64,000 nucleotides of DNA, from positions 21,738-85,737 of the forward strand of contig JAGFNJ010000018.1 in assembly GCA_017592775.1 (NCBI GenBank), written 5' to 3'. Origin of the DNA: Candidatus Accumulibacter conexus (GTDB lineage: Bacteria; Pseudomonadota; Gammaproteobacteria; Burkholderiales; Rhodocyclaceae). This document shows, piece after piece, positions 2 through 14,552 of this stretch. A program made the translations under genes and the position numbers. How positions within the stretch are numbered: position 1 is the stretch's first letter; each line of letters opens with the position of its first letter. Below the pieces are notes generated by a model that saw only the letters and a list, made by a program, of their open reading frames with translations, made no database searches and had not been told where the DNA came from.

Positions 2-1498
2 GTCACCGTGAATCCGGGCGAGACCTTCGTCGATCGGATGATCGCCATGGTCGAGACGGCGAAGCGGCAAAAGACACCGAACGAAATCGCGCTGGCGATC
101 CTGCTGGCGGCCCTGACCATCGTCTTCCTCGGCGTCACCGCGACCCTGCTGCCGTTCTCGCAGTTCAGCGTCGCGGTGGCCGGGTCGGGTTCGCCAGTCA
201 GCATCACCGTCCTCATCGCGCTGCTGGTGTGCCTGATTCCGACCACCATCGCCGGCCTGCTTTCGGCCGTCGGCGTCGCCGGCATGAGCCGCATGATGCA
301 GGCCAACGTCATCGCCACATCCGGCCGCGCGGTCGAAGCCGCCGGCGACGTCGACGTGCTGCTGCTCGACAAGACCGGCACGATCACGCTGGGCAATCGC
401 CAGGCCGCGGCCTTCCTGCCCGCCGACGGGGTCAGCGAGGCCGAACTCGCCGACGCAGCGCAACTGGCGTCACTCGCCGACGAAACTCCGGAGGGGCGCA
501 GCATCGTCGTTCTCGCCAAGCAGCGCTTCAATCTGCGCGAGCGCGATGTGCATGCGCTCGAAGCGCAGTTCGTGCACTTCTCGGCGCAAACCCGGATGAG
601 CGGCGTCGATGTGCCCGGTCGGCAGATTCGCAAGGGGGCCACCGATGCCATCCGCCAGCATGTCGAGGCCCTCGGTGGCGCCATGCCGCCGTCCGTGCTG
701 ACGGCCGTAGACGCGGCGGCACGCCGCGGCAGCACGCCGTTGGTCGTGGCCGATGACACACGCGTACTCGGCGTCGTCGAACTGAAGGACGTCGTCAAGG
801 GCGGCATCAAGGAACGCTTCGCCGAACTGCGGCAGATGGGGATCAAGACGGTGATGATCACCGGCGACAACCGCCTGACGGCGGCAGCAATCGCCGCCGA
901 GGCCGGCGTCGATGACTTTCTTTCCGAAGCGACGCCAGAAGCCAAGCTGGCGCTGATCCGCAAGTACCAAGGCGAGGGCCGCCTGGTGGCGATGACCGGC
1001 GACGGCACCAATGACGCACCGGCCTTGGCCCAGGCCGACGTCGCCGTGGCGATGAATACCGGCACGCAGGCCGCCAAGGAAGCCGGCAACATGGTCGACC
1101 TCGACTCGAATCCGACCAAGCTGATCGAAGTCGTCGAGACCGGCAAGCAGATGTTGATGACGCGCGGCGCGCTGACCACCTTCAGCGTCGCCAACGACGT
1201 CGCCAAGTATTTCGCAATCGTTCCGGCCGCCTTCGTCAGCACCTACCCGGCGCTTGCGGCACTCAACGTGATGGGGCTCGCCAGCCCGGCCTCGGCGATC
1301 CTCTCGGCGGTCATCTTCAACGCCCTGATCATCATCGCGCTGATTCCGCTGGCCCTCAAGGGTATCCGCTACCACGCCGTCGGCGCCGCCAGCCTGCTGC
1401 GTCGCAATCTGGCGATCTACGGCCTCGGTGGCCTGGTCGCCCCCTTCGTCGGCATCAAGCTGATCGACATGGCATTGGCCGCCGCCGGTCTTGCCTGA
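2..1498 (+). CDS. kdpB: KdpB, potassium-transporting P-type ATPase catalytic subunit (5' truncated by window)
   Basis: ATP-hydrolysing subunit of the high-affinity inner-membrane K+ pump KdpFABC. The visible 498 codons carry the P-type phosphorylation motif DKTGTIT (Asp codon at 368-370), the hinge motif [11 protein letters not shown], and C-terminal membrane segments. KdpB is normally about 680-700 residues, so roughly 190 N-terminal residues, including the actuator TGES region, lie before the window. The frame is open to base 2; a GTG at 8 is internal, because VNPGETF is a conserved internal stretch. The stop is 10 bases before the kdpC start, so the two are one transcript. Very sure of the identity. 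Confidence 0.97.
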
Positions 1499-1508
1499 GG
1501 AGATATCA

Positions 1509-2084
1509 ATGAAAAAGCTGCTGCGTCCTGCCGTTTCCCTGTTCGTATTCCTTTCGGTCGTGACCGGTCTCCTCTATCCGATGCTGGTCACCGGCGTGGC
1601 GCGGATCGCCTTTCCCGATGCCGCCGCCGGCAGCCTGATCATCCGGGACGGGAAGCCGATCGGCTCGGCGCTCATCGGCCAGGATTTCAGCGACCCGAAG
1701 TACTTCTGGGGCCGCCCGTCCGCAACGGCGCCGCAGCCCTACAACGCTGGCGCATCATCGGGCTCGAACCAGGGACCCTTGAACCCGGCCCTCGTCGACG
1801 CTGTCAAGGCTCGGGTCGCGGCGCTGCACGCCGCCGGCCCGGGCAACCGGCGACCCGTACCGATCGACCTGGTCACGGCTTCGGCCAGCGGTCTCGACCC
1901 GCACATCAGCCCGGCCGCTGCCGACTACCAGGTCGAGCGCGTCGCCCGCACCCGGCACCTTGAGGTGAAGACCGTACGACAGCTCCTCGCCGAGAATACC
2001 GAGGGTCGCGACCTCGGCGTCTTCGGCGAACCGCGCGTCCATGTCCTCAAGCTCAACATCGCGCTCGACGCGCACCCGCGTTGA
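1509..2084 (+). CDS. kdpC: KdpC, potassium-transporting ATPase accessory subunit
   Basis: Single-span subunit that stabilises the KdpFABC complex. The 191-residue length fits the family. One N-terminal hydrophobic helix follows the MKKLLRPAV start, and the periplasmic part has family motifs such as [23 protein letters not shown] and [11 protein letters not shown] chose the ATG at 1509 because a GAGGAGAT ribosome-binding site overlaps the kdpB stop just upstream; an in-frame TTG at 1491 is less likely. A 155-bp gap without a gene separates it from kdpD. Confidence 0.96.
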
Positions 2085-2239
2085 GCGCGCACGGCGCGAA
2101 GGGACGGCCGCTTGCGCACGGGTTCCGGTACGTGGGCAACGCCACGCTGCTGTGCCGGCAGCCGCACCCTCCATCTTGCGGGCGGTCGCGCCGCGCCCTT
2201 TGCCGACAGCAACCCGGCTCTTGAAGAGCAGCAAGTGAA

Positions 2240-4966
2240 ATGAAGGACATCCGCCCCGATCCCGATCTGATCCTCGACAGGATCAAGGAAGAGGAGATGC
2301 GCGCCGCCCGCGGCAAACTGAAGATTTTCTTCGGCGCCTCAGCGGGTGTCGGCAAGACCTACGCCATGCTGTCGGCTGCGCGCCAGCAGACCGAGCAAGG
2401 CACGGACGTCGTCATCGGTGTCGTGGAAACCCACGGCCGCAAGGAGACGGAAGCCTTGCTGACGGGACTGGAGCGTCTGCCGCTGAAGGCGGTGGCCTAC
2501 CGTGACAGGGTGTTGCAGGAGTTCCACATCGACGCGGCGCTGGCGCGCAAGCCTGCCCTTCTCCTGGTCGACGAACTCGCCCATTCCAACGTGCCGGGTT
2601 CGCGCCACGCCAAGCGCTGGCAGGATGTCGAGGAACTGCAGTCGTCCGGTATCGACGTCTATTCGACCGTCAACGTGCAGCACCTGGAGACCCTCAATGA
2701 CGTTGTCGGTGGGATTACCGGCATCCGGGTGTGGGAGACCGTTCCTGACCATGTCTTCGATGCCGCCGATGAAGTCGTTCTCGTCGACCTGACGCCGGAC
2801 GAACTGCTGCAGCGCCTCAAGGAAGGCAAGGTCTATCTGCCGCAGCAGGCCGAGCGCGCGATCCAGAATTTCTTCCGCAAGGGCAACCTGATCGCGCTGC
2901 GCGAACTCGCACTGCGCCGCACCGCCGACCGCGTTGACAGCGAGATGATCCAGTATCGGCGCGACAAGTCGGTCACGCGCGCCTGGCAGACCAGTGAGTC
3001 GCTTCTCGCCTGCATCGGCCCGGGAGATGGCAGCGGCCGCATCGTCCGCAGCGCCGCCCGCATTGCCGCAAGGCTCGACGTGCCGTGGCACGTGATCTAC
3101 GTCGAGACGCCGAAACTGCGACATCTCTCGGAAAAGCGGCGCTTGCAGACCCTCAAGAGTCTCAAGCTGGCGCAGGAGATGGGGTCAGAAACGGCCAGCC
3201 TCTCCGGCAGCGACGCGATTGCGACCATCATCGACTATGCACGCGACCACAACCTCTCGAAGGTCATTGTCGGCCGCGATCATGCGCAGTCCTGGCGACC
3301 CTGGAAGCGCTCCTTCGCTGACCGTGTCGGCAAGCTTGCACCCGATCTCGACATCATCCAGGTCGCACGCGAGGACACACCGGCCGACAGGCGGCAGGAG
3401 GAGAAATCAACCAGCGAGTCGCTGCTCGACCGGCTGCGCGCCCCCTGGCAGTCTTTCGCGATGAGTTCGGTCTTCTGTGCGCTGGTGACGCTCATTGCCA
3501 TGCCGCTGCACACGGTGTTCGACCGTGCCAACATCGCCATGCTCTTCCTGATGGCGGTCGTCCTTTCTGCAGTTCGCTACGGTCTCGGCCCGGCAGTCGC
3601 GGCGGCCTTCCTCAACGTGGCGGCCTTCGATTTCTTCTTCGTGCCGCCGCGATTTTCGTTCGCAGTCGGCGACGTCCAATACCTGATGACTTTCGCCGTC
3701 ATGCTTGCCGTCGGCCTGGTCACCGCCAAGCTGACCGCGGACCTCAAGTTCCAGGCCCGCGTCGCCAGTCGCCGCGAACAGCGGGTCAGGGCACTCTATG
3801 AGATGTCGCGCGATCTGTCCGGCGCGCTGATCGCGGAGCAGATCGCCGAAATCAGCCAGCGTTTCGCCGCTACCGGATTCGGCGCCCGCGCCGCCATCAT
3901 GCTGGCCGACGAGCGAGACCGGCTGCACGAACCGATTCAGGTGCCCGGTGGCGTGCCAACGGTAGACGTGGGCATCAGCCAGTGGGCCTTCGACCACTGT
4001 GCGGAGGCCGGTTGGGGCACCGACACCCTCGCCGGTAGTCCACTTCTCTATGTTCCCCTCAAGGCGCCGATGCGCACGCGCGGCGTGCTGGTTCTGGAGC
4101 CGAGCCCCTCGCGGCGGCTGATGGCCCCCGAGCAGCGTCGCCTCCTCGATACCTTCGCCCGGCTGGTCGCCATTTCCCTCGAACGCGTCCATTACGTCGA
4201 TGTGGCGCGGGCAACCACGGTGCAGATGGAGTCGGAGCGCCTGCGCAATTCACTGCTGTCAGCCATCTCGCATGACCTGCGCACACCACTCGCGGCGCTG
4301 GTCGGCCTGGCCGACTCGATGTCCATGACGCAGCCACCGCCGACGGGACAGCAATGCGACATCGCGGCGTCGATGCGGGAAGAGGCGCTGCGCATGAATT
4401 CCCTGGTCAACAACCTGCTCGACATGGCTCGCCTGCAGGCCGGTGCGGTCAAGCTCAATCGCCAGTGGCAACCGCTGGAGGAAGTGGTTGGCAGCGCCAT
4501 CAAGGCCATGCGATCGACCATGGCGGGCCATCGCGTTGGCGTCAACCTGCCGGCCGAATTGCCTTTGCTGGAGTTTGACGCGGTACTGGTCGAACGGGTG
4601 CTGTGCAATCTCCTGGAGAATGCCGCCACATACACCCCGCCGGGAAGCACGATTGAAATCGGCGCAGCGCCGGCTGCCCGCGACCAGATAGACATCTGGG
4701 TCGAGGATGACGGACCCGGTCTGCCGGCTGGAAAAGAGGAACTCATCTTCAACAAATTCGAGCGTGGCCGGAAGGAAAGCGCAACGTCGGGCGTGGGTCT
4801 CGGACTGGCGATCTGCCGCGCCATAGTCGCCGCGCATGGTGGCACCATTCGGGCCGAGAACCGCCATGGTCGAGGAGCGCGCTTCGTGTTCTCCCTGCCG
4901 TGCGGCAATCCTCCTTCCCTCGATGGCGCCGAGAAGGATCTTCCGGAGGAGGAGAGCCCGAAGTGA
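2240..4966 (+). CDS. kdpD: KdpD, osmosensitive K+ channel sensor histidine kinase
   Basis: Membrane sensor kinase that controls kdp expression in response to K+ limitation and osmotic stress. The 908 residues contain, in order: an N-terminal KdpD domain with Walker A GASAGVGKT (residues 32-40), a universal-stress-protein-like domain (about 250-375), a cluster of transmembrane helices (about 405-500), a GAF-like region, a HisKA domain with phospho-acceptor His678 in SHDLRTPL, and a HATPase domain with an N box (NLLENAATY) and DDGPGLP. The length is normal. It overlaps kdpE by 4 bases (GTGA), which indicates translational coupling with its response regulator. Confidence 0.97.
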   Translation: MKDIRPDPDLILDRIKEEEMRAARGKLKIFFGASAGVGKTYAMLSAARQQTEQGTDVVIGVVETHGRKETEALLTGLERLPLKAVAYRDRVLQEFHIDAALARKPALLLVDELAHSNVPGSRHAKRWQDVEELQSSGIDVYSTVNVQHLETLNDVVGGITGIRVWETVPDHVFDAADEVVLVDLTPDELLQRLKEGKVYLPQQAERAIQNFFRKGNLIALRELALRRTADRVDSEMIQYRRDKSVTRAWQTSESLLACIGPGDGSGRIVRSAARIAARLDVPWHVIYVETPKLRHLSEKRRLQTLKSLKLAQEMGSETASLSGSDAIATIIDYARDHNLSKVIVGRDHAQSWRPWKRSFADRVGKLAPDLDIIQVAREDTPADRRQEEKSTSESLLDRLRAPWQSFAMSSVFCALVTLIAMPLHTVFDRANIAMLFLMAVVLSAVRYGLGPAVAAAFLNVAAFDFFFVPPRFSFAVGDVQYLMTFAVMLAVGLVTAKLTADLKFQARVASRREQRVRALYEMSRDLSGALIAEQIAEISQRFAATGFGARAAIMLADERDRLHEPIQVPGGVPTVDVGISQWAFDHCAEAGWGTDTLAGSPLLYVPLKAPMRTRGVLVLEPSPSRRLMAPEQRRLLDTFARLVAISLERVHYVDVARATTVQMESERLRNSLLSAISHDLRTPLAALVGLADSMSMTQPPPTGQQCDIAASMREEALRMNSLVNNLLDMARLQAGAVKLNRQWQPLEEVVGSAIKAMRSTMAGHRVGVNLPAELPLLEFDAVLVERVLCNLLENAATYTPPGSTIEIGAAPAARDQIDIWVEDDGPGLPAGKEELIFNKFERGRKESATSGVGLGLAICRAIVAAHGGTIRAENRHGRGARFVFSLPCGNPPSLDGAEKDLPEEESPK

Positions 4967-5658
4967 GCGAACCGCGGCCCGCAGTTCTCGTCATTGAAGA
5001 CGAGCCCAACATCAGGCGCTTCATCAGGATGTCGCTGGAAGCAGAAGGCTGCCAGGTCTACGAGACCGACTCCATGCAGCGCGGCCTGATCGCGGCCGGA
5101 ACCCGCCGACCGGACATGGTCGTGCTCGACCTTGGCCTGCCTGACGGTGACGGCGTGGATTTCATCCGCGACCTGCGCGCCTGGTCCGATATTCCCATCA
5201 TCGTGCTGTCGGCACGGACGACCGAAGCGGACAAGGTGGGTGCTCTGGACTCGGGTGCCGACGACTACCTGACGAAGCCTTTTGGGGCAGCGGAACTGCT
5301 GGCTCGCGTTCGTGCCCAACTGCGGCGCCGGTCAAGTGCCAGCGCCAGCGGGTCTGCGGTCCTGGAATTCGGCAGGATGCGTGTCGATCTCGGCAAACGA
5401 CTGGTCGAGCGAGCAGGCGAGCCGTTGCACCTGACACCCATCGAGTACCGGCTTCTCGCCTTCCTGATCACCCATCCGGACAGTGTTCTGACCCATCGCC
5501 AACTGCTCAAGGCGGTGTGGGGGCCATCCCATGCCGACGACAGCCATTACATCCGGGTCTATATGGGGCTGCTGCGCAAGAAGATCGAAGAGGATCCGTC
5601 GCAGCCGAGACACATCATCACGGAAGCGGGCGTAGGTTACCGTTTTGTTGCCGCATGA
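4963..5658 (+). CDS. kdpE: KdpE, response regulator of the kdp operon
   Basis: OmpR-type response regulator, the partner of KdpD. The 231 residues have a receiver domain with an acidic pocket (IEDE), phospho-acceptor Asp56 (VVLDLGLPDGDG), the conserved TKPF Lys, and a C-terminal winged helix with a recognition-helix region ending YIRVYMGLLRKKI. The GTG start at 4963 overlaps the kdpD stop and is preceded by GGAGGAGGAG, so I prefer it to the in-frame ATG at 4900, which lies inside kdpD. The 213 bp that follow show no gene or clear terminator. Confidence 0.96.
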   Translation: MSEPRPAVLVIEDEPNIRRFIRMSLEAEGCQVYETDSMQRGLIAAGTRRPDMVVLDLGLPDGDGVDFIRDLRAWSDIPIIVLSARTTEADKVGALDSGADDYLTKPFGAAELLARVRAQLRRRSSASASGSAVLEFGRMRVDLGKRLVERAGEPLHLTPIEYRLLAFLITHPDSVLTHRQLLKAVWGPSHADDSHYIRVYMGLLRKKIEEDPSQPRHIITEAGVGYRFVAA

Positions 5659-5871
5659 AGTGCCAGTGCCGTTCGTGGCACCGCAGCGCAACATGTGCGG
5701 TTGCCAGGCCCATCGCCAAGTGCAAGGGCAGCCCGGCTATGGCAACATGAGATGTCGTGCAGCCATTCAGCCGGCAACGGGCGCGCCGCCGCGGCGGGTC
5801 CTGACGGCGATCAGCATGTGGACCGCCTGCCCGATGGCAAGCGGCAAGTCTGGAACAGCAGGGAGTCGGCA

Positions 5872-8356: not shown

Positions 8357-10528
8357 TCAGGCCCTCAGAGCCAGGACGACGCCGGCAAGCGGCGGCACGG
8401 TGATGGACAGTGAGTACGGGCGGCCCATCCACGGCACATCCTCGGCAACGAGTTGCCGATCGCTGTTGCCCACATCGCCGCCGCCGTAGAAATGCGAATC
8501 CGAGTTGAGGACCTCCCGGTAGCTGCCCGGTTGCGGCACGCCGATGCGGTAATCCATACGCGGGACAGGCGTGAAGTTGATGATCACCACGACGAACTCG
8601 TCGCCAGCCTTGCGGACAAAACTCAGGATCGACTGTTGCGAATCGTGGCAATCGATCCACTCGAATCCCTGCCACTCGAACTCGTTTCCATGCAGGGCCG
8701 ACGAGCCGCGATACAGCTGATTGAGATCCTTCACCAGCGTCTGCATGCCGAGATGCAACGGAAACTCCAGCACATACCAGTCGAGAACCCCGGCGCTGTT
8801 CCACTCCAGACCTTGGCCGAACTCGGTGCCCATGAACAGGAGCTTCTTGCCCGGATGCGTGAACATGTAGGTGTAGAGCAGTCGGAGATTGGCGAAACGC
8901 TGCCATTCGTCGCCGGGCATGCGGTTGATCATCGAGCCCTTGCCATGCACCACTTCGTCATGCGAGAAAGGCAGCATGAAGTTCTCTGAAAACGCGTAGA
9001 GCATGCTGAAGGTGAGCAGGTCATGATGGTACTGGCGGTAGATCGGCTCCTGCCCCATGTAGCGCAGGGTATCGTTCATCCAGCCCATGTTCCACTTGAT
9101 GTCGAAACCCAGTCCGCCAATGTAGGTCGGGCGCGTCACCTGCGGCCAGGACGTCGATTCCTCGGCGATGACCAGCGTGCCGGGAGCTTCCGTGTGGGTC
9201 GTGGCGTTGAGTTGGCGCAGGAAGTCGATCGCTTCGATGTTCTCCCGGCCGCCGTATTCATTCGGCACCCATTCGGTGCGCGAATAATCGAGATAGAGCA
9301 TCGAAGCGACGGCATCGACGCGCAAACCGTCGAGATGGAACTCGTCAAGCCAGTAAACGGCGCTGGAAATGAGGAAGTTCTTCACCTCGTTGCGACCGAA
9401 ATTGAAGATCAGCGTCGACCAGTCCAGATGTTCGCCCTTGCGCGGATCCTCGTGCTCATAGAGCGCCGTGCCGTCGAAGCGCGCCAGTGCATGGGCATCC
9501 TTGGGAAAATGGGCGGGAACCCAGTCGAGAATCACGCCGATATCGTTCTGGTGGCAGAGATCGACGAAATGGCGAAAGTCGTCGGGGGTGCCGAAACGGC
9601 TGGTCGGCGCAAAATAGCCGGTGACCTGGTAGCCCCACGACTGATCGAACGGATGCTCGGTGACCGGCAGGAGCTCGATATGGGTGAAGCCCATCCGGTT
9701 CACATACTCGACCAGTTGTCTCGCCAACTCGCGGTAGTTGAGGAATTCCCCTTCATATCCACGCTGCCAGGAGCCGAGATGGACCTCATAGGTGGACATC
9801 GGCGCATGCTGCCAGTCGGCCGCCGCGCGCCGCTCCATCCAGGCGGCGTCCTGCCAGACGTAGGTCGAGCGAGGACTGACGATCGATGCATTGCCCGGCC
9901 GCATCTCGAAGCGCCGGCCGTAGGGATCGGATTTGGTCAGCACCTCGCCGCTGTTCCGGTTCCTGATCTCGAAGCGATAGAAGATGCCGGGGGCGATATC
10001 GGGAATGAACAGCTCCCATACCCCGCTTCCCGGACGCACGCGCATCGGGTGGCGACGACCGTCCCAGTGATTGAAGTCGCCGAGGACGCTCACACGCTCT
10101 GCATTGGGCGCCCAGACGGCGAACAGGATGCCGGCGACGCCGTCAATCTCCTGTTCGTTTGCCCCCAGGAAGTTGTAGGCGTGGCTGTGCCTGCCCTCGC
10201 CGAAGAGGTGCAGATCGAAATCCGTCAGCTGCGGCAGGTAGGTATAGGGGTCGTGGGCAATATGGTCGTGATGCCAGGTATCGCGCCAGATCAGGCGGTA
10301 GTGTTCCGGAAGGTTCTTGCCGGAACCCTGCCATTCGAAAAAGTCGGAACCCGGAATACGTGCCAGCGGCAAATTGCCTTCGGCGATGGACACTTCAGTC
10401 GCGTGCGGGATGTAGGCCCGCACGACGACGCCTGCAGCACAAGGATGCCTGCCCAGGACCGAAAACGGATCGTGGTGGCGCGCTTCGGCGATGCGGATCA
10501 GTTCGTCATTCAACCTGGTTTCTAACAT
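8357..10528 (-). CDS. glgB: GlgB, 1,4-alpha-glucan branching enzyme
   Basis: Creates alpha-1,6 branch points in glycogen. The 723 residues match the usual length (about 725-730). An N-terminal CBM48-type region (FSVLGRH..., [11 protein letters not shown]) precedes a GH13 catalytic barrel with [10 protein letters not shown] (region I), [18 protein letters not shown] (nucleophile Asp), AEEST (acid/base Glu) and [14 protein letters not shown] (region IV), then the C-terminal all-beta domain. The ATG at 10528 follows a GAAGGAAGA site. It lies 79 bp downstream of the glgX-treZ fusion gene on the same strand and is probably co-transcribed. In a polyphosphate-accumulating organism this pathway would serve anaerobic/aerobic glycogen cycling. 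Confidence 0.97.
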
Positions 10529-10607: not shown

Positions 10608-13600
10608 TCAGGCAGCGCTCCGCAGCAACCACACGACCGACCATGGCAGCAGGCGCCCTTGCGTCAGCGCATGATCGGCCTCTCCCGGCTCGGCCCAGAG
10701 GACTGCACCAGCCGGCCGTTGCAGGCCCTCAAGTGGAACGCCGCTGTAGTTCGCCAACAGGGTCAGGAGCGAGTCGTCGCCGAGCGTCCACCGGATCGAC
10801 AGGCCGCGCCCCCCGATCAAGCTATGCCGAACGGTCTCTTCATGCATGCCAGTCAACCGCGGACAGATCTCGCGGCGGCGAACGGCCAGTAGCCGGCGAT
10901 GGAAATCGAGCCAGTCAGCATGCGGTGACTGGCGAACGCTGTTCCAGTCGAGTTTGCAGCGCTGAAATGTGGCCGGATCCGTTGGGTCCGGAATGCGCGC
11001 CCGCGTCCTGGCCGTGCGAAACCCCTGCAGATGGGCAAAGGACTTGCGCCGGTTGGCTGCGAGGTTCTTGACCAGATCCGGGTTGAAGTCGCAAAAATAC
11101 AGGAACGGCTGCGCGGCGGCGAACTCTTCGCCCATGAACAGCGCCGGCGGCATGGGTGCCAACAGAGAGGTCGCCACCAGCGCGCCCAGCGGCCGCGCTG
11201 GGGTCAACTGGTGTAGACGTTCGCCGAGTGCCCGGTCGCCGATTCGCGCGTAGTCCTGCAGGAAGGTCACGAAAGCGGTGGGCAACAGGCGATCCGGACC
11301 GCCGTCGACAAACCCACGGCTCAGGCAGGCGCCCAACTGGTCAAGCGGCCGGGCGGTGCCGACCGCACCTGCCGATGCACCGGTCAACACTTCCTGCATC
11401 GCCTGCTGGGCGGCGTCATTCCAGACGGCTTCATAACGGCGCGGAGCGCTGTGATCATGCCAATGGAGATAGCGGGCAGCCCGCTGATCATGGCCCAGCA
11501 GCAGGTGGCAATGGCGGTGCTTGCCGGGCCCCTCACGAACCGCGTCGGCGAGCGCCTCCAGCAGATCGAGCTCACCCGCGTTTTCCTGCAGCAAGGCCGC
11601 ATTCAGGCGGAGACCATCGAGATGGAACTCCTCCAGCCAGTACAGTGCATTGTGGATGAGGAATTCGCCGGCGACCGCCAGCAAGACGTCGATGCTCCTG
11701 CCGGCGAGATCGGTCGTGCGTGGGGCGAAGAACGCCGGCGCGTAAACAGACAGGTAATTGCCCTCTGGCCCGAAGTAGTGACAGGCGAGATCAAGCAGGA
11801 CCATCAGTCCCTTGTGGTGGGCGGTCTGAACCAGATCCTTCAGCTCGTCCGGGTGGCCATAGCTGGCGGCAGGGGCAAATGGCAACACGCCGTCGTAACC
11901 CCAGTTGTGTGCCCCGGCAAAGGCACCGACCGGCAGCAGTTGAATCGCCGTCACGCCCAGTTCCACCAGATGATCCAGTCGTTCCCTGACTGCCGCGAAG
12001 GTACCCTGCACGGTAAAGGCGCCAACATGCAGCTGATAGATGATCGCTTCCTCCCAGGGCCGGCCCCGCCAGTTGCGGTCGGTCCAGACGAACCGACCCG
12101 GCTCGATCACCTGGCTGGCGCCATGTACACCCTGGGGATTGTAACGGGAGGCCGGATCGGGGACTTCACCAAGACCATCGATCCGATAGCGGTAGAGGTC
12201 ATCCACCGTCGCCTCATCGCTCGTCAGTTCGTACCAGCCCGCTTCCCTGGCTTCCATCGGCAGGAGGACGGCGCCAGCCCCCGCTTTCTGCAGTGCAACG
12301 TCCACCCGTTCGGCCGCTGGCGCCCAGAGGCGAAAGCGCACCCGCCCACCTTCGAGCACTTGCGCACCGAAGGGCATGAAATAGCGCCGGCGCAGTAGCG
12401 GCTCCGCCACTTGGCCGGCCTGGCGCCGCTGTGTCAGCAGCGCCAGCGAACGGCCCTGCAGTCGATAGGAGGGGTCGCTGACCCGCCGCAGCTCGCCGCA
12501 TTCGACCAGAGCGGTATCGACCACTAACTCGCTGTCGCCCTTCCACGGCAGCGTGAAGCGAATCGGCTCGTGGTGGCCATTCAGCAGCAGCAGGAAATCA
12601 TCGTCCTTGGCCCACTGCCCGCGTTCATCCTGCTCTTCCAGGGCCTCGCCGATCAGGTACAGGCCGAAGCAACGGGCATGATGATGATCCCAGTCCTGAT
12701 CGCTGATCTCGGCTGCGTCCGGATGCAGCCAGATGATGTCCCGGACGCCTGCGCCGCGGATACGCTGCCCCTGGAAGAAGTGCCGCCGCCGCAGAGCCGG
12801 GTGCTTCCTGCGCAATTCGATCAGGCGGCGGGCAAACTCGAAAAGCTCCCGGTTGTCCGCCATCCCGGCCAGATCCCAATCGACCCAGCTCAGTTCGTTG
12901 TCCTGACAGTAGGCGTTGTTGTTGCCGCGCTGGGTGCGTCCCATTTCATCGCCCGCCAACAGCATCGGCACGCCTTGCGAGAGCAGCAGCGTCGCCAGCA
13001 GATTGCGTCGCTGCCGCTGCCTCAGCCGCAGCACCTCGGGGTCCGCCGTCTCGCCTTCGGCGCCGCAGTTCCAGCTGCGGTTGTGCGCGTCGCCATCGCG
13101 GTTGTCTTCCCCATTCGCCGCGTTGTGCTTTTCGTTGTGGCTGACCAGATCGTAGAGCGTAAAACCATCATGGGCGGTGATGAAGTTGATGCTGGCATAG
13201 GGTCGGCGGCCACTGTGCTGGTACAGATCGCTGGAACCGGTGAGACGGTAGGCGAGCTGGCCCATCAGCCCGCCCTGACCGCGCCAGTAATCGCGCACGA
13301 CGTCCCGGTACTTGCCGTTCCACTCGGTCCAACCAACCGGAAAGTTGCCCACCTGATAGCCGCCATCGCCCAGATCCCAGGGCTCGGCAATCAACTTCAC
13401 CTGCGACAGTACCGGGTCCTGATGAATGATGTCCATGAAGGCGCCGAGCTGATCCACTTCGTGCAGCTCCCTGGCCAGGGCGGCTGCCAGATCGAAGCGG
13501 AAACCATCGACGTGCATCTCGATGACCCAATACCGCAGGCTGTCCATGATCAGCTGCAGCACCCGCGGATGCATCATGTTCAGGGTATTGCCACAGCCGG

Positions 13601-14552
13601 TGTAGTCCATGTAGTAACGGGGAGCGCCGGCCACCAGACGATAGTAGGCGGCATTGTCAATGCCGCGGAAGCACAGCGTCGGCCCCAGATGGTTGCCTTC
13701 GGCGGTGTGGTTGTAGACCACATCCATGATGACTTCGATACCGGCTGCGTGCAGGGTCTTGACCAGATGCTTGAATTCGTCGAGACGACCGCTGGCGGAA
13801 TAGCGCGGGTCAGGGGCGAAGTAGCCGATTGAATTGTAGCCCCAGTAATTCTTCAGCCCCCGTTCCAGGAGATGGCGGTCGTCGACAAAGGTCTGTATCG
13901 GCAGGAACTCCACCGCGGTGATGCCCAGACGCTTGAGATGGTCGATGACCGGCGGGGTGCTCAGCCCGGCATAGGTGCCGCGCAGCTCGGGCGGCACATG
14001 CGGGTGCAGGCGGGTGAAGCCCTTGACGTGCAGCTCGTAGATGACGCTTTGGTGCCAGGGAACATTGGGGCGGCGGTCCCCGTCCCAGTCGAAAGCGGGA
14101 TCGATCACCTGGCACTTGAACATGCGGGGTGCGCTGTCGCGCCGGCTGAAGCTCAAGTCCTCGCGCGGACTGCCGATGCGGTAACCGAACTGGGCATCGC
14201 TCCATTCGATGGCGCCGACAATCCCTTTGGCGTAGGGGTCGAGCAGCAGCTTGTGGGGGTTGAAGCGGTGCCCTTCCTCTGGCCGATAGGGCCCATGGAC
14301 GCGGTAGCCGTACAGTTGCCCCGGGCGCACTGCAGGCAGATACGCATGCCAGATCTGGTCGGTCTTCTCGGCCAGCTCGATGCGCTGCTGTTCCTGTCGC
14401 CCGCTGTCGTCGAACAGGCACAACTCGACCTTGTCCGCGTGCTCCGCGAAGATTGCGAAATTGACCCCTTCCCCGTCCCAGGTGGCGCCCAGGGGATACG
14501 GTCTGCCAGGCCAGACTGCCGTCAGCGCTTCAGACATGGCCGCAGGCACCAT
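10608..14552 (-). CDS. glgX: GlgX glycogen debranching enzyme fused to a degenerate TreZ (maltooligosyltrehalose trehalohydrolase-like) module
   Basis: A single 1314-residue frame. Residues 1 to about 715 are a complete GlgX/isoamylase: CBM48-like N-terminus, DVVYNHT (region I), FRFDLA with nucleophile Asp354, LIAEPWD with Glu390, and TAHDGFT with His461/Asp462. All catalytic residues are present, so alpha-1,6 debranching is expected. From about Met726 to the end, the sequence tracks TreZ closely ([50 protein letters not shown]). Its active site is lost: region I has His925-Tyr926 where Asn-His is usual, the nucleophile Asp is Asn984 (LDGLRLNA), the acid/base Glu is Gly1020, and the region IV His-Asp pair is Tyr1101-Ala1102. 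The second half is therefore read as a pseudoenzyme, perhaps a glucan-binding or scaffolding module. It sits 79 bp upstream of glgB. Confidence 0.93.

Follow-up and report, generated by a model that had tools for sequence, protein, structure and literature searches.

A GlgX-TreZ fusion of Candidatus Accumulibacter with a dismantled TreZ active site, tentatively read as a debranching enzyme carrying a tethered non-catalytic subunit

The product of TreY is the substrate of TreZ, and glycogen turnover is central to the removal of phosphorus from wastewater by Accumulibacter. In the TreZ of Sulfolobus solfataricus KM1, mutagenesis supports the carboxylates D252, E283 and D377 as essential (PMC3716775; papers are cited throughout for their accessible sections). 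Among debranching enzymes, the plant isoamylase ISA1 has a partner, ISA2, whose catalytic residues vary and whose removal has effects even when ISA1 is inactive; in the accessible text, what non-catalytic partners such as ISA2 do is called not understood (PMC12510319). GlgX of Streptomyces venezuelae is under c-di-GMP regulation, and an ExR(X)6R motif has been described for GlgX regulated in this way (PMC9530166). In Accumulibacter, a BLASTp threshold of E<1e-40 was used to credit the genus with conversion of glycogen to trehalose (PMC7778627).

Here we analysed a 64,000-nt stretch of DNA (the window) from contig 13 of a Candidatus Accumulibacter conexus genome of 4.87 Mb. Positions 10608-14552 of the minus strand form a single intact frame of 1314 aa (ATG at 14552, stop at 10608), in which residues 16-707 match the GlgX profile TIGR02100 and residues 738-1268 match the TreZ profile TIGR02402 (Table 1). 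The frame is next to glgB, as an earlier note on this DNA had claimed; glgB follows on that strand after a gap of 79 bp, and the two genes are likely co-transcribed. Close to the glycogen genes, positions 2240-4966 encode a KdpD-type osmosensitive K+ channel sensor kinase.

Table 1. Positions of the glycogen-related features in the window
Feature	Coordinates	Strand	Remarks
GlgX (glycogen debranching) half, aa 1-725	12378..14552	-	catalytic residues intact; TIGR02100 1075.6 bits (cut-off 640.9)
TreZ-derived pseudoenzyme half, aa 726-1314 + stop	10608..12377	-	
CBM48-like N-terminal domain of pseudo-TreZ, aa 726-829	12066..12377	-	Pfam CBM_48 43.7 bits; 26/27 enzyme-conserved positions kept
Rewritten catalytic segment, aa 920-1110	11223..11795	-	HY925-926, A950, N984, G1020, Q1049/Q1050/Q1053, A1063, YA1101-1102
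C-terminal domain (DUF3459), aa 1217 to end	10608..10904	-	PF11941 62.7 bits
glgB branching enzyme	8357..10528	-	Pfam GlgB_N, CBM_48, Alpha-amylase, Alpha-amylase_C

The C-terminal half alone scores 496 bits against TIGR02402, a match that spans 1-536 of the 545 profile positions but stays below the curated cut-off of 538.8, and 77.2 bits against TIGR02100, and is thus derived from TreZ rather than from an isoamylase-family partner. The whole protein reaches 618 bits with TIGR02402 and passes the cut-off because the GlgX half adds score. The earlier note placed the start of a TreZ-like module at Met726; the TreZ homology begins about six residues ahead of that methionine. At the junction, unfused genes read MKR(Q/R)H(S/R)-MPFGA and the fusion reads [11 protein letters not shown]. 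An internal translation start at Met726 was rejected, as inspection by eye found nothing similar to a ribosome-binding site just upstream.

The N-terminal half is a GlgX both by its equivalog profile score and by its catalytic Asp/Glu/Asp. Specifically, Asp354, Glu390 and His461/Asp462, which the earlier note had listed as the complete set of GH13 catalytic residues, are found at these numbers and are invariant in the nine full fused copies aligned. The nearest solved relative of this half is 7u39. Control by c-di-GMP as in the Streptomyces enzyme was considered and rejected, as the two arginines of the ExR(X)6R motif (PMC9530166) are Ala and Trp here when the alignment is read by eye. The same genome encodes a second, unfused GlgX (about 53% identical; G000:C29:57585-59612) near another GH13 frame of 732 aa, and second GlgX copies also occur in other Accumulibacter.

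In the TreZ half, the active site is dismantled. When KM1 TreZ is mapped onto the fusion alignment, D252, E283 and D377 correspond to N984, G1020 and A1102 of the window protein, so that all three carboxylates are gone. Across the ten fused sequences, position 984 is Asn in every case, position 1020 is Gly in nine and Ser in one, and position 1102 is Ala in eight and Ser in two. Furthermore, the −2/−3 tryptophan W215 is replaced by A950, the +2 tyrosine Y325 by A1063 and E447 by S1171, and the +2 loop carrying F352/R353 is missing, each in 10/10. The ligand-contacting H192 (position 926) is Tyr in seven sequences, Cys in one and His in two, and the histidine of the His-Asp pair, Y1101 in the window, is still His in five. 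Positions 925-926 vary among the fused proteins (HY/HC/QH/EH), as do positions 1101-1103, while D887 and R1168 are kept in all ten and Y886 in eight.

The earlier note had stated that every catalytic position of the module is changed, and had proposed an alignment with TreZ as a check. In that alignment, H925-Y926, N984, G1020 and Y1101-A1102, all present at the numbers given, do face N-H, D, E and H-D of unfused TreZ, and no catalytic Asp or Glu stands there. One position needs qualification: phmmer, aligning the module pairwise to 3m07 and to 2bhu, matches the acid/base Glu with His1021 instead of Gly1020, and the module has no Glu in either register. Extended to the whole clade, the claim holds for the three carboxylates and less uniformly for the two histidines.

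The D-E-D triple is lost in 10/10 distinct fused Accumulibacter sequences and in 0/85 other distinct TreZ sequences, which is not chance. This count covers matches that begin by query residue 150 and reach 480, for which 120 loci gave 95 distinct sequences, 85 with D-E-D and the remaining 10 being the Accumulibacter fusion. Outside the count, the partial sequence L062 shows N, G and A; it is a partial dead fusion (92% identity) on a 3336-bp contig titled as a Methylococcaceae MAG (JAJRDJ010000463.1), which is probably mis-binned Accumulibacter. The module has a TreZ fold with neither the Asp/Glu/Asp carboxylates nor the substrate residues (+2 Tyr, loop, −2/−3 Trp), and, judged by its residues, it has almost certainly lost trehalohydrolase catalysis.

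The earlier note had proposed a search for the same fusion in related genomes. Among the 28 Accumulibacter genomes searched, ten have the dead fusion (G000, the window's genome, G010, G013, G014, G016, G020, G022, G024, G026, G027), nine have a split live treZ (G001, G004, G009, G011, G012, G015, G017, G019, G023) and nine have neither (G002, G003, G005-G008, G018, G021, G025, with G003 at 72% and G002 at 87% being incomplete). TreY scores over the cut-off in 0/10, 9/9 and 0/9 of these groups, respectively; the dead fusions form one clade, and the link between the dead state and treY absence counts as a single evolutionary contrast rather than as 19 separate cases. In eight fused genomes searched (all but G026 and G027), TreS is over the cut-off in one (G024) and OtsA in none. 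A 625-aa frame of the window's genome (G000:C53:14546-16027) scores 273.6 bits against TreS (cut-off 678.35), with similar matches in G014, G016, G018 and G024.

The gene order in the split-treZ genome G001 is glgB, treS-mak, glgC, glgX, treZ, malQ-treY; with the Met of MKRQHS taken as the start of treZ, the overlap between glgX and treZ is about 4 bp. In a type I Accumulibacter locus, L039, a MalQ-TreY fusion (1725 aa; 490-5667) and a TreS-maltokinase fusion (1121 aa; 10856-14221) lie in the same cluster, indicating that fusions are common in this pathway. The named carriers of the dead fusion are contiguus SBR_L and vicinus UBA5574 (both IIC) and necessarius UW12-POB (IID), and those of split treZ are regalis (IA), appositus and adiacens (IB), and meliphilus and SBR_S (IC), with clades per PMC9238405; the type I/II contrast compares five named type I with three named type II genomes, none of the latter from IIA, IIB or IIF. 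Two more split-treZ carriers are ACC003 and HK-STAS-PROT-102, whose clade is not given in the accessible text of PMC9238405. Trehalose has been shown to be an osmolyte in a clade I culture (PMC7778627), in agreement with the split live treZ of type I.

Outside the genus, a single-contig genome of another family in the same class (G079, locus L140) encodes GlgX-TreZ in one 1415-aa frame with TreY just downstream. Its TreZ motifs are intact (NHFGPEGN, LRLDA, LENDKN, QNHDQ), and fusion alone therefore does not kill TreZ. This live example is the sole other stop-free match over both halves in 369 class-level genomes (E<=1e-150), and 398 phylum-level genomes (E<=1e-250) gave none besides the window's own; both searches are samples whose thresholds favour GlgX, and several long-open-frame GlgX hits (e.g. 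G180, G198, G438) were left out. The earlier note knew of no GlgX-pseudo-TreZ enzyme. The fusion as such is not unique, given G079, and we found no report of a dead version in the open-access subset of the literature, a weak indication that none has been published.

Origin of the fused gene from the type I Accumulibacter glgX-treZ pair was also considered. An AU test that constrained fused and type I GlgX to group together rejected it (p 1.4e-7, 42 rows) but was confounded by four Propionivibrio/Nitrotoga-type rows that nest with type I. With these four rows included, the type I grouping is still rejected by GlgX (p 0.0012), whereas the TreZ half is compatible with it (p 0.078). The fused gene may thus have a separate history, perhaps via gene transfer, as indicated by GlgX only and with weak deep branches. 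No unfused parent of the fusion was found.

The dead half is nevertheless maintained. No internal stop occurs in the TreZ half across the ten fused sequences, an alignment that left out L098, L129, near-duplicate loci of included genomes and loci matching the first 260 residues only. The median pairwise dN/dS of this half, a check named in the earlier note, is 0.158 (NG86, 45 pairs) or 0.125 (YN00, 43 usable pairs), not near 1. The corresponding values are 0.108 (36 pairs) and 0.066 (35 usable) for the GlgX half in 9/10 fused genomes, and 0.108 (28 pairs) and 0.053 (22 usable) for live split type I TreZ in 8/9 split genomes, G012 being broken by a contig end. By segment, the fused and live TreZ values are 0.189 vs 0.103 in the CBM48-like N-domain, 0.075 vs 0.067 in residues 830-919 (central GlgX part, 0.079), 0.168 vs 0.089 in the old catalytic segment, 0.135 vs 0.113 at the barrel end and 0.189 vs 0.261 in the C-domain. 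Constraint is looser on the dead half than on live TreZ, yet its evolution is far from neutral.

In a tree of the 34 of 64 loci that hold both halves, the stem of the dead clade measures 0.91 substitutions per site in TreZ vs 0.36 in GlgX, with the midpoint root of the TreZ tree on this branch. The median TreZ/GlgX distance ratio is 1.76 for fused vs non-fused, 1.16 for split Accumulibacter vs others and 1.43 within the fused clade. This pattern fits a burst of change after function loss, followed by renewed constraint. The earlier suggestion of selection for a non-catalytic role draws support from the dN/dS values, the absence of stops and the single dead clade that coincides with treY absence, and selection of some kind has very probably retained the TreZ half.

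The changes are not spread evenly over the module. At 181 columns that are at least 85% conserved across 38 TreZ enzymes, the fused clade retains the majority residue at 138, of which 123 (89%) are invariant within the clade, and has lost it at 43. The losses cluster in aa 920-1110, with 34/81 enzyme-conserved columns changed vs 9/100 elsewhere (Fisher p 2.1e-7, a descriptive value because the boundary was picked after viewing the changes), and the CBM48-like domain has lost 1/27. The TreZ fold of the module is predicted with confidence. A two-domain model (aa 161-1314), meant to reveal a GlgX/TreZ interface, reached a mean pLDDT of 61.7 and a pTM of 0.54 and was discarded on these scores.

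We read these data as a TreZ fold retained around an old cleft that appears to have been abandoned, which would favour scaffolding, or binding at another site, over channelling. Among the roles that the earlier note had offered, channelling is disfavoured, as is any binding of sugar within the former cleft, since the −2/−3 Trp, the +2 Tyr and the +2 loop are lost as well, together with the residue equivalent to E447; because the known sugar-binding residues of the cleft are mostly gone, any glucan binding must be outside it. On the sequence evidence, the remaining candidate roles would be a scaffold, glucan binding via the CBM48-like domain, and regulation of the debranching half.

On balance, we favour a GlgX whose complete C-terminal TreZ fold, almost certainly no longer a trehalohydrolase, is kept as a non-catalytic helper in GlgX function (positioning, glucan binding or oligomer geometry) and not for mere foldability. 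In the proposed course of events, adjacent glgX and treZ genes of an ancestor would have fused; TreZ chemistry without TreY would have lacked its substrate, and the active site would have been dismantled; the module would then have been kept because it helps the GlgX half. Most likely, the module would serve as a rigid subunit with no catalysis of its own, holding branched glucan in position or binding it via the CBM48-like domain and/or fixing GlgX oligomer geometry, and would work like the ISA2 partner of ISA1 but covalently attached. We infer this positive role. More tentatively still, a TreZ without its pathway may have been turned under selection into a non-catalytic domain governing the way in which GlgX engages glycogen, that is, a bacterial, covalently tethered pseudoenzyme subunit. 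The low dN/dS could reflect only the need of an attached domain to fold, and the weaker constraint on the dead half than on live TreZ, in both the catalytic segment and the CBM48-like domain, counts against the helper reading.

The strongest rival takes up this point: the dead TreZ would be an inert appendage, useless to GlgX, that must fold and stay soluble, with selection preserving only its core. The raised dN/dS of the CBM48-like domain would be expected under it, as would the fact that the rewritten conserved positions are invariant about as often as enzyme-variable columns (18/43, 42%, vs 208/397, 52%). We consider it rather unlikely, in that truncation after GlgX would be cheap, yet no fusion-type GlgX without the TreZ module is listed at E<=1e-100 in the 28 genomes of the genus, a 151-aa fragment in G020 aside, and segment 830-919 is as constrained as central GlgX. 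The fragment (G020:C76:31023-31475; 88% identity, 236-aa open frame) corresponds to a fusion-type GlgX N-terminus and lies shortly before a GlgB-like match; the whole fusion of G020 is on a separate contig, 77.

Alternatively, the former active site could bind another effector and regulate debranching allosterically. At the 18 invariant changed positions, all ten fused sequences share a new residue (e.g. D984N, H1049Q, H1050Q, H1053Q, W950A, Y1063A), and the c-di-GMP-regulated GlgX of Streptomyces (PMC9530166) offers a regulated relative; the pocket floor, however, varies within the clade at 925-926 and 1101-1103, and conservation at the changed positions does not exceed that at ordinary ones, which makes a repurposed pocket improbable. 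It is highly improbable that the module is still catalytic through non-canonical residues, for although His1021 and Asp1022 near the former acid/base are invariant in nine full copies, none of the ten fused sequences has any of the three GH13 carboxylates or the +2 loop. A decaying pseudogene or an assembly artefact, to which the long stem branch might point, is scarcely credible given intact frames, dN/dS of 0.16 far from that of a pseudogene, and nine whole copies, each in a different genome, of which G010 and G016 consist of a single contig, the tenth copy (G026) ending at a contig end inside GlgX.

The helper reading, if it holds, offers a clean case of an enzyme that lost its pathway and became a retained non-enzyme domain, with natural controls in the split live genes of sister species and in the live fusion of G079. 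If the module alters debranching, the protein would provide a simple system in which to test what non-catalytic partners within GH13, ISA2 among them, do. If the tethered-subunit reading is true, the named type II carriers (IIC, IIC, IID) would be unable to make trehalose from glycogen via TreY-TreZ, and their glycogen handling in phosphorus-removal cycles would differ from that of the named type I genomes (IA, IB, IB, IC, IC). The locus also carries an annotation warning: the whole fusion lies above the NCBI cut-off for TreZ, and with a BLASTp threshold such as E<1e-40 dead fusions would probably be scored as treZ.

Compared with known systems, the window module differs from TreZ (TIGR02402; PDB 2bhu, 1eh9, and 3m07, deposited as a putative alpha amylase) in lacking the carboxylates, the −2/−3 Trp, the +2 Tyr and the loop, and in being joined to GlgX in ten genomes where TreY is absent. 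The N-terminal half is like GlgX/TreX (TIGR02100; 7u39, 2vnc), an intact GlgX by profile and residues, but the protein runs on into a dead TreZ. G079 has the identical domain order in one frame; its TreZ catalytic residues are intact and TreY is adjacent. In plant ISA1/ISA2, an active GH13 debrancher likewise has a GH13 partner with variable catalytic residues (PMC12510319), but that partner, ISA2, is a paralogue of isoamylase and forms a chain of its own, whereas the partner here is TreZ-derived, fused and bacterial, so that the likeness is an analogy of mechanism only and not membership in an ISA2-type family. The chlamydial GlgA-GlgB fusion also joins glycogen enzymes of which one domain (GlgB) is inactive, and by analogy gives the glycogen pathway another precedent for a fusion accompanied by loss; it involves other enzymes, and the accessible text presents it alongside a defective GlgC-GlgA pathway and not as a helper domain that was kept (PMC11046441). 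Set beside these systems, the dead GlgX-TreZ may be a GH13 pseudoenzyme partner of a kind with precedents, itself apparently without a report in the open-access subset searched.
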